DNA of 64,000 nt from Streptomyces sp. HmicA12 (GTDB taxonomy: Bacteria; Actinomycetota; Actinomycetes; Streptomycetales; Streptomycetaceae). The position numbers were made by a program, and so were the translations under genes. Of this stretch, positions 11,941-17,286 are shown piece by piece (positions within the stretch are counted from its first letter, which is position 1; the number at the start of each line of letters is the position of its first letter). The DNA lies in contig NZ_KB891797.1 of the NCBI RefSeq assembly GCF_000373565.1, positions 654,487 through 718,486 of the forward strand. Reading direction: 5' to 3'. The notes under the pieces were generated by a model, which saw nothing but the letters and a program-made list of their open reading frames with translations, had not been told where the DNA came from and did not search any database.

Positions 11941-14010
11941 TCATGAGCCCCATCCGTCGCGATAGAAGAGATGGTGATCGCCGCCGGGCTTATTTATCTT
12001 GGCGTACCGTTCCATATCTTCCGGATAGCCTGCCGATCCGTCGGATCGAAATACTCTCTGGTTATCCCATCCAAAGTTGACGAAGCTGCGACTGTCGTCG
12101 ACCTTAGGTTTTCCTGCGTGGAAATGTGGTCCAGCCTTGTCGAATGTGTGCTCGACGATTACGCGGGATCCCTGGTCGGTCTCAAATTGGCGAAAGTGGC
12201 CCCAGTGCTGCCATTGGCTCGAATAAGTGTATCCCGGCACGTGTTTGAGCTGTTCATTTCCAGTGACAGTCCATTCTGCCACTGGCTTCTCGCCATACGG
12301 AACCCCAGCAAGGTCGTAAGCCGCCCTTTCTGCGTCTTGGCGATTCTGGAAGGGGTTGCTGCGCTCGCCCAGAGGGCACGGGGTGAGCCCGTGCGGATCG
12401 GCCGAGGTGTGCGGGTTGCGGACGTACGTGCTGGGGTTCGGTGCGGGCGTCAGTCCCAGCGGATCAGGCGTGAGGTATCGGGCAGTCGCAGGGTCGTAAT
12501 GACGGAATAGGTTGTAGTGGAGCTGAGTTTCAGGATCGAAATACTGCCCTGGGTAGCGTATAGGCGTGTGGGTGGTCGCGGTTCGCGTCCAGACCGTGGC
12601 CCCCCAGAGCGTATTTCGGGTGCGTGCGGCAATAGTGCCGCCCTCGTCCAAGAGCTCGGTGGGGGCACCGACTAGATCGGTGACAATCGTGAAGAAGCGT
12701 TCGTCGATTTCATGCTGAGCGGCACGGGGCGCATATATTCGCTCTCGCTGCAGGAGAGGCTCGAGAGCGTTGTAGTCCCAGGTGGTTGCAAGCCCGGTGT
12801 TGCTGTCCGAGCCATGCGTAGTCTGCTCGCACAGAGTCGTACCGTCCCACGCGAACTCCACCCGCTCCAGAACCACTTCGCCGTCCCCGGCCAACCGCAG
12901 CTTCGCGATCCGCCGCCCCAGCGGGTCGTACAGATACCGCCACACCACGCCGTCAGGCGTCACGCACGCGACGAGTCGGTCCTCCGCGTCCCACGTGTAG
13001 CACCACGTGTCCGGCTTGCGGGACAAGCGCGTCTTCTGGCGGAGCGTGGTGCGGCCCGCCGCGTCGTACTCGTAGCGGATGGCGCCCGCGCGGGTGATCC
13101 GGGTGCCGATGTACTCGCGGGCGCCCGTCGCCTCCTGGCCCGGCATCGACTCCGGCCAAGTGGCCTGTGTCTGGTTGCCGGCGGCGTCGTACGCGTAGGA
13201 CTCGGACCAGTTGTGGGCCGTCACCGCCGTCACGCGACCCCGTGCGTCGAGGGTGAAGCGGCGCGGGCCGTTGAGCGCGTCGTCGATCGCGGTGAGGTTG
13301 CCGTCGGCGCGGTAGGTGTACGCGCGGTGCTGGAGGGGTTGCGCGGCGGGGCCCGTGACCTGGTGGGTCGTGAGGCGGCCCAGGGGGTCCCAGGTGCTGG
13401 TCAGGGTCAGGGCGGGGCCGAGCGTGCGCGTCAGTTCCTGGCCGAGGGCGTCGTGCGTGAAGGAAAGTGTGCGGCCGGACGCGGTCAGGGCGGTGCGGTT
13501 GCCCGCCGCGTCGTAGGACCAGGCGCTCCCGGCGCCCGTGGGCGTGGTGCGAGAGGTGCGGCGGCCGAGGGCGTCGTACGTGTAGGAGACCGTGCGGCCG
13601 TTCGTCGACTCGGAGAGTGTGCGGCCCGCCGTGTCGTACGTGTACGTGAGGACGGCGTCCGGGCCGCTGATGCGGGTGGGGCGGCCGGCCAGGTCGTACG
13701 AGTACTGGGTGACGGCCCCCGCCGCCGTCTTGGCCGTGAGGTTGCCGAGCGGGTCGTGGGTGAACTCGATCGTGTCGCCGAGCGGGGTGGTGCGGGTCGT
13801 GAGGCGGCCGGACGCGTCGTGGGCGTAGTGCTGCGTGCGGCTGTCGAAGTCCGTCTCCGCGATCAGGCGGCCCGCCGGGTCGTAGGAGTAACTGATCGTT
13901 TCAGAATGAACGCTTGGCCAGGCGGTTGTTCGCTGCGAATATGCGCTTTCGACTCGGCGGTGATGGGCAGGACGCATGATGACGCGGTGGCATCTCTTGC
14001 GAGGGGACAT
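11941..14010 (-). CDS. RHS-repeat polymorphic toxin, 5' end lost at IS junction
   Basis: C-terminal part of an RHS/YD-repeat protein, 689 codons. YD repeats (YDPAGRL, YDALGRRTSRT and similar) run from about residue 40 to 440. The RHS core ends at YLTPDPLGLTPAPNPSTYV ... DPHGL, and a variable toxin tail of about 145 residues follows. The tail (NPFQNRQDAERAAYDLAGVP, VIVEH, GPHFHAGKP, HHLFY) resembles HNH/endonuclease VII-fold toxins, a tentative reading. The first ~40 codons come from inverted-repeat DNA that begins at 13889; signal, N-terminal domain and promoter are missing and are not found beyond the element. ATG 14010 is merely the first available start. GC falls over the toxin tail. Probably silent or a reservoir cassette. 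Confidence 0.8.
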   Translation of the reverse strand: MSPRKRCHRVIMRPAHHRRVESAYSQRTTAWPSVHSETISYSYDPAGRLIAETDFDSRTQHYAHDASGRLTTRTTPLGDTIEFTHDPLGNLTAKTAAGAVTQYSYDLAGRPTRISGPDAVLTYTYDTAGRTLSESTNGRTVSYTYDALGRRTSRTTPTGAGSAWSYDAAGNRTALTASGRTLSFTHDALGQELTRTLGPALTLTSTWDPLGRLTTHQVTGPAAQPLQHRAYTYRADGNLTAIDDALNGPRRFTLDARGRVTAVTAHNWSESYAYDAAGNQTQATWPESMPGQEATGAREYIGTRITRAGAIRYEYDAAGRTTLRQKTRLSRKPDTWCYTWDAEDRLVACVTPDGVVWRYLYDPLGRRIAKLRLAGDGEVVLERVEFAWDGTTLCEQTTHGSDSNTGLATTWDYNALEPLLQRERIYAPRAAQHEIDERFFTIVTDLVGAPTELLDEGGTIAARTRNTLWGATVWTRTATTHTPIRYPGQYFDPETQLHYNLFRHYDPATARYLTPDPLGLTPAPNPSTYVRNPHTSADPHGLTPCPLGERSNPFQNRQDAERAAYDLAGVPYGEKPVAEWTVTGNEQLKHVPGYTYSSQWQHWGHFRQFETDQGSRVIVEHTFDKAGPHFHAGKPKVDDSRSFVNFGWDNQRVFRSDGSAGYPEDMERYAKINKPGGDHHLFYRDGWGS

Positions 14011-14096
14011 CCTGATCGGCGAACTCAGTGAGTACGGTTGCGATCAGCCGTTCTTCCTGGCGCGCTTCACTCCGGGGCCAGGCTGGGAGAGTGTTA
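13889..14096. repeat. 208-bp inverted repeat, left arm
   Basis: Base-by-base comparison shows this is the exact reverse complement of 15173-15380. It begins TAACTGATCGTTTCAGAATG, sharing about 19 bases with the left end of the inner IS at 14096, and ends inside a truncated copy of the 103-residue gene found at 14982-15293. Its outer edge breaks the RHS reading frame. Confidence 0.95.
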
Positions 14097-14119
14097 CTGA
14101 TCGTTTCAGAATGAGTTGA
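13976..14119 (+). pseudogene. 5' fragment of the 103-residue hypothetical gene
   Basis: The first 39 codons are identical to those of the intact minus-strand gene ending at 14982. Homology stops after GPGWESV exactly where the IS left end begins (14097); the frame then runs into IS sequence and stops at 14119. It is a non-functional remnant produced by the same rearrangement. Confidence 0.8.
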
Positions 14120-14985
14120 GCCGCGGGTCTTGCACTGGACGATCTTGGTCGGCAGGGTGTCCGGGTGCGTACTGATCTCGTTTCGGACGACATGTGGGAG
14201 CGGGTGGCCCCGCTGCTGCCACCCACTCCCGAGCGGCGCCGCCGGTATCCCGGGCGGTTGCGTGTTCCTGACCGAACAGCGCTTGCCGGAGTCCTGTTCG
14301 TGCTGCGGACCGGTGTCGCTTGGCGGGACGTCCCGGCGGAGACCGTGGGCTGTTCCGGGGTGACGGCCTGGCGTCGGTTGCGGGACTGGACGGAGGCTGG
14401 CGTGTGGCCGCGCCTGCACGCAGCCCTGCTGACCGAACTGCGCCGCGCCAATCTGCTGGACCTGGACGACTGCTCCGTGGACGGGTCGCACATCCGGGCA
14501 CTCAAAGGGGGGACCACGTAGGCCCCTCGCCCGTCGACCGCGCCCGCCCTGGCTCCAAGCACCACCTGATCGTCGACCGCCACGGAATCCCACTCGCCGT
14601 CACACTCACCGGCGGCAATCGGCACGACGTAACCCAGCTTCTGCCCCTGCTCGACGCGGTCCCGCCAATTCGGGGCCGGCGGGGACGTCCCCGCCGCAAG
14701 CCACGGCGTCTGTATGGCGACCGGGGCTACGACTTCGACAAATACCGTCGCCTGCTGTGGAAGCGTGGCATCAAGCCGTTGATCGCGCGACGCGGCGTCG
14801 CCCACGGGTCCGGACTGGGCAAGGTGCGCTGGGTGGTTGAGCGCGCCTTCGCCTGGCTGCACCAGTTCAAACGGCTCCGCATCCGCTACGAACGACGCGC
14901 CGACCTCCATCGCGGACTGCTTCAACTGGCTTGCAGTCTCATCTGTCTGCGGCGGCTCCTGCAGGCGCGCCAACCACCGCGTCAG
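14097..14985 (+). mobile_element. IS5-family insertion sequence lacking its right end
   Basis: The left end is CTGATCGTTTCAGAATGAG and the transposase frames start about 70 bases in. The matching right terminal repeat (expected to end ...TTCTGAAACGATCAG shortly after the transposase stop) is absent; instead the sequence passes directly into the 3' end of the 103-residue gene. The right boundary given here is therefore approximate. The only inverted copy of the terminal motif lies at 15360-15379, beyond that gene. Confidence 0.75.
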
Positions 14986-14988
14986 TAG
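14165..14988 (+). CDS. IS5-family transposase, two frames joined by -1 frameshift
   Basis: DDE transposase in two overlapping frames. The first frame (14165-14521) gives the N-terminal half, from MRTDLVSDDMWERVAPLLPP to DDCSVDGSHIRALKGG. The second gives DHVGPSPVDRARPGSKHHL through VVERAFAWLHQFKRLRIRYE, the catalytic C-terminal half. The switch is at AAAGGGGGG (14504-14512), a typical -1 slippery run in this IS group. The conserved D of DGSH, D of YGDRGYD and E of WVVERAF are all present. The last residues (LLQARQPPRQ) differ from the usual short C-terminus, consistent with loss of the IS right end, so mobility is doubtful. Confidence 0.85.
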
Positions 14989-15293
14989 CGGAGGCGAGCT
15001 TCGAACCCGTCGATGCGCAGCATGCAGTTCTTGAGAACCTGCAACGAGGGCTGGTGGCCATCAACCGGAACGAGTCTGAGCTCCAGATCCTGCAACGGCT
15101 TGAGCACAGCGAAAGTTCGAGCCCCGTCCGGGTCCGGCCCGCTGAGGGCCGCCGATGCCTCGAACAACGCCCTAACACTCTCCCAGCCTGGCCCCGGAGT
15201 GAAGCGCGCCAGGAAGAACGGCTGATCGCAACCGTACTCACTGAGTTCGCCGATCAGGATGTCCCCTCGCAAGAGATGCCACCGCGTCATCAT
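14982..15293 (-). CDS. Small hypothetical protein straddling the inverted-repeat arm
   Basis: Intact 103-residue frame starting MMTRWHLLRGD and ending RIDGFEARLRY. No recognised domain, signal or membrane segment. Its first 39 codons lie in the right inverted-repeat arm and are duplicated, inverted and truncated at 13976-14119. Its stop codon lies inside the last codons of the IS transposase, so a break point coincides with its 3' end. It may be an accessory protein of the RHS locus or a passenger gene; nothing in the sequence decides. Confidence 0.6.
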   Translation of the reverse strand: MMTRWHLLRGDILIGELSEYGCDQPFFLARFTPGPGWESVRALFEASAALSGPDPDGARTFAVLKPLQDLELRLVPVDGHQPSLQVLKNCMLRIDGFEARLRY

Positions 15294-15380
15294 GCGTCCT
15301 GCCCATCACCGCCGAGTCGAAAGCGCATATTCGCAGCGAACAACCGCCTGGCCAAGCGTTCATTCTGAAACGATCAGTTA
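15173..15380. repeat. 208-bp inverted repeat, right arm
   Basis: Perfect reverse complement of 13889-14096. The outer edge (CGATCAGTTA) is followed by TCAGCCGTTCTTC, 13 bases that also occur inside the arm itself (14044-14056), a possible trace of an older copy. Together the arms enclose 1,076 bases. Confidence 0.95.
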
Positions 15381-15614
15381 TCAGCCGTTCTTCGGGCCCA
15401 TGGCGGAGGGGTCACCCCGGACCCGTTCAGTGACGCCCGCGCGACCAACCGCGGCCGGAGATCAGCCCGTCGCGCCGGAACTCCTGCGTCGGCCGACCTG
15501 GAAGCGGGCCTTCCGGCCCGGCACGGTGACCGATCCGATCTCCCGGCGCCGGGCTCCGGGCGCCGGGCTCCGGGCGCCGGGCCCCGGAAGAGCGGGTGGC
15601 TCCGCTGCTCGCCG
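15381..15614. other. Non-coding stretch beyond the IS complex
   Basis: These 234 bases hold no convincing gene. No RHS sequence resumes here, so the missing RHS 5' half was deleted rather than displaced. A run of repeated GGGCGCCGGGC-like units near 15545-15590 is locally repetitive. Confidence 0.5.
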
Positions 15615-16337
15615 CTACAGCAACCCCTCCGCGATCTCCCGCACCGCCGCGACCGCCCGCCGCTGAAGCCCCGGTCCGAACGTGATCCGGGTCGCCCCCG
15701 CCTCGCCCCACTCCCGCAGTGAAGGACCGTTCGGCGGTGCGCCCACGTTGATCGGGCCGGTGATCTCGGCGCGCAGGCGGGGGAGGGCCTCGATGGGGGC
15801 GCCGATCGGGTACACGCAGTCCGCGCCCGCCGCCACGTACAGGCGGGCCCGCTCGATCGCCGCCGTGATCGGGTCGGCGGCGGTCCTGATGAACGTATCG
15901 ATACGCGCGTTCAGGACGACGGCGCCGCCCGCCTCCGCCCGCACCTCCGACAGCCAATCGGCGTGCGCGCGGGGGTCCTTGAGGCCGCCGTCGCGGGTGG
16001 AGTCCTCCAGATTGCAGCCCACCGCGCCCGTCTCCAGGAGGCGCTCCACGAGTTCCTTCGGGGCCAGGCCGTAGCCGTCCTCGATGTCCGCGCTGACCGG
16101 CACCGACACGGACCGCACGATGCGGCGCACCGCCGCGAACATCTCGTCGGCGGGCGTGGCCCCGTCCTCGTAGCCGAGCGACGCCGCGACCCCCGCGCTC
16201 GGCGTCGCGAGCGCCGGGAAGCCGGTCTCCTCGAAGACGCGGGCGCTCGCCGCGTCCCACGGGCCCGGCAGGACGAGCGCATCGCCCGGGGAACGGTCGT
16301 GGTGCAGGGCGCGGAACGCGTCGGCCTCGGTGTTCAC
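15615..16337 (-). CDS. Isocitrate lyase/PEP mutase family protein
   Basis: TIM-barrel enzyme of about 240 residues in the PEP mutase/isocitrate lyase superfamily. It has the metal-binding DIEDGYG, then NLEDS and NARIDTF, and the N-terminal PGPWDAASARVFEETGF. It lacks the KKCGH loop of true isocitrate lyases, so C-C lysis of a 2-methylisocitrate- or oxaloacetate-like substrate, or a phosphonate role, is possible but unproved. GTG 16337 overlaps the TGA of the upstream AhpD-like gene (GTGA); a GTG at 16340 is equivalent. It ends a three-gene operon read away from the MocR regulator. Confidence 0.85.
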   Translation of the reverse strand: MNTEADAFRALHHDRSPGDALVLPGPWDAASARVFEETGFPALATPSAGVAASLGYEDGATPADEMFAAVRRIVRSVSVPVSADIEDGYGLAPKELVERLLETGAVGCNLEDSTRDGGLKDPRAHADWLSEVRAEAGGAVVLNARIDTFIRTAADPITAAIERARLYVAAGADCVYPIGAPIEALPRLRAEITGPINVGAPPNGPSLREWGEAGATRITFGPGLQRRAVAAVREIAEGLL

Positions 16338-16783
16338 CACGCGGGTCCTCCCGGTGCGATGCGGCGGCTGACCATCAGCCGGTTCCAGCTGTTGATGACG
16401 GTGATCACGCCGATGAGATGGGCGAGCTCGGTCTCATTGAACTCCTTGGCGGCGGCCGCGTACACGTCGTCCGGCACGAATCCGTCCGTGAGGACCGTGA
16501 TCGCCTCGGTCAGCGCGAGCGCCGCCCGCTCCCGCGCGCTGTACAGGTCGCCGGCCTCGCGCCAGGCATTGAGCAGGGCGATCCGCTTCGCGCTCTCGCC
16601 GTTCTTCTCGACCGCCACGTCCACGTGCATGTCGAGGCAGAACGCGCACTCGTTGATCTGCGACGCCCGGATCATCACCAACTCGGCGAGGACCGGATCG
16701 TCGAGGCCCTTCTTGGCGGCGGCGGCCAGTCCGCTCATCGCCTTGAGGACCCCGGCGTCCAAGTAGCTGGTCCTGGCGCTCAC
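16334..16783 (-). CDS. Carboxymuconolactone decarboxylase (AhpD-like) family protein
   Basis: Alkylhydroperoxidase-like protein of 149 residues with the redox signature INECAFCLDMH (CxxC plus His three residues on), typical of AhpD-type peroxide-detoxifying proteins. It is about half identical to the next gene upstream, sharing ALALTEAITVLTDGFVPDDV almost exactly, so the two are tandem paralogues. The GTG start at 16783 overlaps the upstream stop by four bases, and its own stop overlaps the next gene, so the three are tightly coupled. Confidence 0.88.
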   Translation of the reverse strand: MSARTSYLDAGVLKAMSGLAAAAKKGLDDPVLAELVMIRASQINECAFCLDMHVDVAVEKNGESAKRIALLNAWREAGDLYSARERAALALTEAITVLTDGFVPDDVYAAAAKEFNETELAHLIGVITVINSWNRLMVSRRIAPGGPAW

Positions 16784-17286
16784 TTGGCACCGACCGGCTT
16801 GTAGTGGCCCGCGACCATGCGCGCGGTCACGCCGAACCGGTTCCAGGCGTTGATCGTCGTGATCGCAGCGATGAGCTGGGTCAGCTCCTTCTCGTCGTAC
16901 AGCCGCGCCGCCTCCTCGTACACGTCGTCCGGCACGAAACCGTCCGTGAGGACCGTGATCGCCTCGGTCAGCGCGAGCGCCGCGACCTCCTTCTCCGTGT
17001 AGAAGTGCTTGCTCTCGTCCCAGGCGGCCAGCTGCACGATCCGCTCCACGCTCTCACCGGCCGCCAGCGCGTCCTTGGAGTGCATGTCCACGCAGAACGC
17101 GCAGTGGTTGATCTGCGAGGCCCGGATCTTCACCAGCTCGTACGTCACCGGGTCCACACCCTGCCGCGCCGCCGCGTCGAGCCGGACCATCGCCTTGTAG
17201 ACGTCGGGGGCGTGCCGCGCCCAGTCGAGGCGGGGCGTGTGTTCGTGCACGTACTCCGGGGTGCCGCTGTTCGTGTTCGTCGTCAT
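16780..17286 (-). CDS. Carboxymuconolactone decarboxylase (AhpD-like) family protein, paralogue
   Basis: AhpD-like protein of 168 residues with INHCAFCVDMH as the thiol site. It is the first gene of the operon, starting ATG 17286, only 46 bases from the divergent MocR start, so the regulator almost certainly controls it. It has a longer N-terminus than its tandem copy downstream (PEYVHEHTPRLDWARHAPDV). A pair of unequal copies could form a mixed oligomer or act on different peroxides; that is inference. Confidence 0.88.
   Translation of the reverse strand: MTTNTNSGTPEYVHEHTPRLDWARHAPDVYKAMVRLDAAARQGVDPVTYELVKIRASQINHCAFCVDMHSKDALAAGESVERIVQLAAWDESKHFYTEKEVAALALTEAITVLTDGFVPDDVYEEAARLYDEKELTQLIAAITTINAWNRFGVTARMVAGHYKPVGAK

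Follow-up and report, generated by a model that had tools for sequence, protein, structure and literature searches.

Structure of the inverted repeat locus

In Streptomyces sp. HmicA12, two inverted arms of 208 bp enclose an IS5-type transposase and parts of a gene for a protein of 103 amino acids (aa), which raises the question how this structure arose and which of its parts move together. The window, i.e., the whole stretch of DNA analyzed here, comprises 64,000 nt (assembly GCF_000373565.1, contig NZ_KB891797.1, positions 654,487-718,486 of the forward strand) of a 9.16-Mb genome available as a draft assembly of 55 contigs. Our answer, to which we assign a probability of roughly 0.78, is that a complete insertion sequence (IS) element carrying the 103-aa gene as a passenger abuts a truncated and inverted second copy, and that this arrangement likely arose by insertion of one copy into the other, at a TTA of its passenger gene, followed by deletion of the remainder of the outer copy. 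The coordinates of the features are collected in Table 1.

The arms (13889-14096 and 15173-15380) are reverse complements of each other at 208 of 208 positions and are separated in the assembly by a spacer of 1076 bp. An identity of this length is far beyond chance and is consistent with the recent origin proposed in the initial annotation, which had also described the arms as exact. Read inwards, each arm starts with TAA, followed by the 18-bp terminal inverted repeat (TIR) CTGATCGTTTCAGAATGA, and then runs into the 103-aa gene; this corresponds to the shared terminal motif reported earlier. The TIR is present in three identical copies (13892-13909, 14097-14114, and 15360-15377), next to which the triplets TAA, TTA, and TTA are located, respectively. 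The 208-bp repeat is the right end plus 40 passenger codons of an IS5-type element that is present twice, and not a separate structure.

The complete copy (14097-15377; 1281 bp, or 14094-15380 with the flanking triplets) consists of a left TIR, a transposase encoded in two frames, the convergent passenger gene, and a right TIR that matches the left one at 18 of 18 bp, with TTA on both sides. The other copy is reduced to an inverted 208-bp end, which stops at the TTA where the complete copy starts. The order of the locus is TAA (TIR, passenger codons 1-40) TTA (TIR, transposase, reversed passenger, TIR) TTA. As first annotated, one gene copy is cut after codon 40 by the left end of the IS and the other one (14982-15293, minus strand) is intact. 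The right end of the IS, which had been regarded as missing, lies beyond the passenger gene at 15360-15377. The suggestion of a gene-carrying element was correct in that the passenger is enclosed by TIRs, but not in its extent: the element proper is 14097-15377, and the outer triplets of the arms (TAA on the left, TTA on the right) form no matching direct repeat.

Assignment to the IS5 type was supported by matches to the DUF4096, DDE_Tnp_1, and IS5_3 models. Residues 4-103 of the NCBIfam IS5_3 model are matched by the first transposase frame and residues 104-258 by the second one. The frames overlap with an offset of -1, and the sequence AAAGGGGGG at 14504-14512 lies inside the overlap; a -1 frameshift predicted near this sequence likely joins them. 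The features of the IS5 family, a DDE transposase, short TIRs, and a 3-bp T-N-A target duplication, were all found at the locus; for the duplication, the TTA on both sides is weak evidence alone, and gapless empty sites of two relatives (see below) fit 3 bp.

Table 1. Features of the inverted repeat locus (window coordinates).
Feature	Position	Strand	Evidence
RHS/YD-repeat gene interrupted by the insertion, 3' part with terminal Tox-HNH-EHHH domain	11941..13890	-	Pfam, NCBIfam
Left arm: TAA, TIR 13892-13909, 40 passenger codons (from 13976, rightward); surviving right end of the inverted second copy	13889..14096	-	Exact inverted repeat of 15173-15380; passenger match at 13976
TTA, left edge of the complete element, within the broken passenger gene of the left arm	14094..14096	.	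Sequence
Left TIR of the complete element, CTGATCGTTTCAGAATGA	14097..14114	+	Sequence comparison
Transposase, first frame; DUF4096, start of the IS5_3 model	14165..14521	+	Pfam E 5.1e-23; NF033580 94.1 bits (below the cut-off of 110)
Transposase, second frame; DDE_Tnp_1, offset -1	14494..14988	+	Pfam E 4.7e-22; NF033580 137.8 bits (cut-off 110)
103-aa passenger gene, intact, convergent with the transposase	14982..15293	-	Open frame; database homologues; dN/dS
Right arm, right end of the complete element including TTA	15173..15380	+	Exact inverted repeat
Right TIR of the complete element	15360..15377	-	Sequence comparison
TTA, right edge of the complete element	15378..15380	.	Sequence
ATCAGCCGTTCTTC, 14 bp of passenger-gene sequence at the right junction	15380..15393	+	3 occurrences in the 9.16-Mb genome, all in this locus

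Origin of the locus

In the left arm, the passenger gene stops at an internal TTA, and the 208 bp that survive match the right copy exactly. In the simplest history, one copy of the element would have inserted at this TTA inside the passenger gene of the other copy, and a later deletion would have removed the remainder of the outer copy along with its flank. The 14-bp piece ATCAGCCGTTCTTC at the right junction is likely a repair scar, which suggests that the deletion was joined by repair copying from an arm. The core of the locus is likely ordinary, namely a nested and truncated IS copy. Integration of a single copy into itself in one step was rejected after its products had been worked out on paper, because the inner copy is complete and two copies are needed.

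Among the 40 of 110 candidate matches scored in the strain's own genome, neither a third copy of the element (only a 98-bp match at 72%) nor a further occurrence of the 208-bp arm was found. This speaks against a family of solo ends or miniature inverted-repeat transposable elements, for which a search with the arm had been proposed. The lack of another copy among these matches and the inverted orientation of the two copies would agree with an intramolecular replicative transposition, in which an inverted second copy was placed nearby, the DNA in between was inverted, and a deletion then placed the left end of the right-hand copy directly against the passenger gene of the left-hand one. An inversion with inverted target duplication is described for IS6-family elements in the available part of PMC7986276. 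However, this course also requires a second event, the deletion. The flanks reveal no inverted segment, and the loci of 15 relatives around the right-flank gene lack the RHS gene for comparison. We regard it as unlikely, although for this sequence adjacent inversion and nested insertion have the same end state, each needing a later deletion.

An assembly artefact, in which a single element end was duplicated, might be suspected from the draft state of the genome (55 contigs) and the exact identity of the arms. It is very improbable, as the outer flanks of the arms differ and each arm ends at a T-N-A triplet like a real element end. A perfect inverted repeat of 208 bp would be enough for homologous recombination, and the arms might serve as the switch of a phase-variable invertible segment. 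Against this, the frames around the arms include no recognised recombinase, as far as the comparison of selected frames with Pfam and NCBIfam goes. Moreover, flipping leaves one intact passenger in either state. This explanation is even less probable than an artefact, despite the reported precedent of inversion by recombination between the 23-bp TIRs of the IS5-family element ISWpi1 (available text of PMC3004938).

Several observations weigh against nested insertion of a passenger-carrying element. The nesting can only be inferred, since neither the remainder of the outer copy nor its far flank has been preserved, and a plain nested insertion does not predict the 14-bp piece ATCAGCCGTTCTTC at the right junction. 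The TTA/TTA match is weak evidence: among the relatives described below, 19 of 33 elements with cargo and 7 of 15 without have identical flanking triplets, near the expectation for a double draw of TTA or TAA. At the position of a possible inner right end, the window's type of element has 10 mismatches compared to a control median of 11, i.e., no remnant, and the capture model presented below therefore rests on relatives. Finally, the TIR is absent from its expected place at 4 of the 19 close passenger loci (L030, L035, L060, and L064, some of them fragments; L numbers designate the loci compared).

Occurrence in other genomes and probable movement with the passenger

The initial annotation had considered that 13889-15380 might occur intact in other genomes as a known IS. 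As such a unit it was not found elsewhere, whereas the segment 14094-15380 was found whole. The unit from TIR to TIR including the passenger recurs in Streptomyces anulatus JCM 4721 (L051, the same place as L007), S. anulatus NRRL B-2873 (L054), and Streptomyces sp. WAC05374 (L058, the same place as L008). S. griseus NCTC13033 contains two copies (L053, L055) at sites with different flanks; they are 99.7% alike, with 4 mismatches over 1286 bp. At L065 (3909-4571), an internal-deletion derivative was observed in which element positions 1-529 are fused to 1118-1287; both TIRs are retained and TAA is present on both sides.

We predict that the transposase mobilises the whole segment bounded by the 18-bp TIRs, the 103-aa gene included, and that a 3-bp target triplet T-N-A is duplicated. 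No empty site is possible for the window's element, because its two flanks do not belong together. For the relatives, ten constructs of joined flanks were built and eight of them searched in shortened form (L015 and L145 were dropped), with two candidates scored per genome. Two of the eight gave gapless empty sites, which were checked base by base with the triplet counted once: L014, carrying DUF6896 cargo, has one in another genome (164 of 189 positions), and L023, carrying a GNAT gene, has one elsewhere on the same contig (186 of 200). Both agree with the unit having inserted as a whole and duplicated 3 bp. For the other six constructs, only their own flanks or one-sided matches were present among the matches listed. 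As judged from sequence comparison, movement of the passenger with the element is supported by these two empty sites and the two copies in S. griseus NCTC13033.

The 103-aa passenger

The passenger protein had no family match in Pfam, NCBIfam, or PADLOC. A search of a large protein database yielded 53 proteins at E ≤ 0.001, the protein itself included; the named homologues are from Streptomyces and a few Kitasatospora. The ratio of nonsynonymous to synonymous substitution rates (dN/dS) of the window copy versus nine others was 0.14-0.33, which argues for a maintained protein. A TIR is located 81-93 bp upstream of the gene at 15 of 19 distinct loci with at least 66.7% identity and at none of 20 more distant ones. 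This distribution makes it likely that the passenger was once an ordinary chromosomal gene and turned into cargo in one clade. From the genes occupying the same slot in relatives, one might guess that it is a small cargo protein of the immunity or resistance type.

Relatives of the element and their cargo

Relatives were surveyed with a query that included the passenger, and two candidates were scored per genome; the sample is not random and the rates given are descriptive. The set comprised 59 places (L006-L024 and L107-L146, where L124 represents two elements and L146 repeats L020) plus L050, L053, L054, L055, and L058; L142-L145 were picked after an earlier search had pointed to them. In cargo-free relatives, which measure about 890 bp, the region homologous to the transposase of the window is preceded by the left TIR at a distance of about 69 bp and followed by the right TIR at 25 bp. 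Among 63 distinct elements, 15 had no recognisable end and were left out, 15 were cargo-free, and 33 had an end displaced by more than 300 bp, the right one in 20 and the left one in 13. If more than one end came into question for an element, we gave preference to the pair whose triplets match. The displaced ends were flanked by T-N-A in 29 of 33 cases, and a control with the reversed motif gave 0 hits in 290,349 bases of the same stretches.

At least 15 gene sets, the 103-aa gene being one of them, are carried by 31 of the 48 two-ended elements, or by 27 of 44 without L050, L053, L054, and L055, which had been found via the passenger. Two elements were left out of the gene-set count despite having both ends, L024 with a doubtful 92-aa frame and L135, which holds another IS5-type transposase; L050 holds two gene sets and was counted once. 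Named after Pfam families where one matched, the sets are the 103-aa gene, DUF6896, an SMI1/KNR4-like (SUKH) gene scoring just below the Pfam cut-off (24.8 versus 25.4 bits), a 113-aa protein, an ABM monooxygenase, a GNAT enzyme, a PHP_C protein, a nucleotidyltransferase (NTP_transf_6), a TetR regulator with an FAD_binding_3 enzyme, a 155-aa protein, a second GNAT enzyme, another 103-aa protein, a glycine-cleavage H protein, a 161-aa protein, and a 119-aa protein. The cargo units span about 1.2-2.8 kb. Since at least 14 further passenger genes or gene pairs were found with related transposases in other Streptomyces, the family probably serves as a very small vehicle for gene capture.

Two further observations concern these cargo elements. 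The HmicA12 genome contains, outside the window, a homologue of the 119-aa passenger of L050 with 69% identity (G000:C52:194046-194375). The DUF6896-carrying element of L015 (~1502-2881) is centred in a 469-bp inverted repeat formed by its flanks, which is exact except for the middle base of the triplet.

Proposed acquisition and exchange of cargo

Capture could start from an element beside a gene with a TIR on the far side of that gene: the outer TIR would replace the inner one, and the end next to the transposase would then decay, with remnants persisting in several relatives. A bypassed inner end is still visible with 2-5 mismatches in 18 positions in L009, L011-L015, L019, L128, and L141, and in L112 the first 11 bases remain. 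In L017, L018, L021, and L023, remnants were recognised by eye with a 1-base deletion; without gaps they have 7-8 mismatches, at about the 1% level of the control, the medians of which were 10-11 mismatches. The remaining cargo elements, including that of the window, showed no clear remnant of an inner end. In L128 and L141, the passenger frame stops within or directly at the inner left TIR.

In three pairs of elements, one passenger is present on opposite sides of different transposase modules, which are about 74-75% alike. For L050 and the window, identity is 88% over the whole arm including the TIR and 75% for the transposase; for L128 and L016, it is 80% over the whole arm and 74% for the transposase, the outer TIR of L016 having 4 mismatches. 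L141 and L023 share a GNAT gene at 92% (excluding the outermost 190 bp of L141), with transposases at 74%. Passengers therefore switch sides and lineages. They can lie to the left or to the right of the transposase, and the window's left arm shares the topology of a left-side passenger. A change of side could result from recombination between TIRs, as reported for ISWpi1 (PMC3004938), or from nesting and subsequent use of an outer end.

Tentatively, and with somewhat less than even confidence, we propose a minimal gene-capture system of Streptomyces in which an IS5-type element of about 890 bp has interchangeable ends and a stray TIR mobilises the short gene lying between. Passengers would cross between lineages and sides, and self-nesting of the kind seen in the window would supply an outer TIR and let cargo switch sides.

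Relation to known systems

IS elements that carry passenger genes are known as transporter IS (tIS) (PMC9330008; PMC7986276), and their IS ends enclose a transposase and a gene of other function, as does this locus with the 103-aa gene before the right TIR. The example given in the available text of these sources is a single-copy IS6-family member with a hypothetical passenger, whereas here an IS5-type lineage carries at least 15 gene sets on either side and shows remnants of bypassed ends. The tIS concept is already known; of interest is the IS5-type lineage with interchangeable cargo. Among the papers listed by the literature searches, which did not cover ISfinder, there was no description of a passenger-carrying IS5-type lineage of Streptomyces with interchangeable cargo. 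ISWpi1 resembles the element in its IS5-type DDE transposase, short TIRs, and T(T/A)A target, but the available text of PMC3004938 does not report ends displaced by passengers as seen here.

The locus also resembles a composite transposon (PMC9330008) in that a gene lies between two element ends; a decayed composite is one possible source of the outer TIR. In contrast to a composite, in which two IS copies flank a gene, there is one transposase-bearing copy here, and the second end consists of a TIR with or without a passenger; at the locus, the second copy is a 208-bp end without transposase.

Provided that the cargo moves in units, small host genes would have a way to spread that requires neither composite transposons nor integrons. 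The capture step can be tested with the help of the remnants of bypassed ends. Searches that expect the right end beside the transposase would miss the cargo units, as happened in the initial annotation.

Neighbouring sequences

The 5' part of the RHS gene was not found beyond the insertion. The truncated RHS open frame (11941-14010, minus strand) starts in the left arm with the ATG at 14010, so that its first residues are supplied by the element, and the Tox-HNH-EHHH domain is retained. At 15590-15609, 210 bp to the right of the element, 20 bp equal the start of the transposase gene of L008 and L010 (19 of 20 compared to the window's own), perhaps a relic of another element. Further to the right (16334-17286, minus strand), two adjacent related genes for 149 and 168 aa share a 252-bp stretch at 73% and have the appearance of a tandem duplication.

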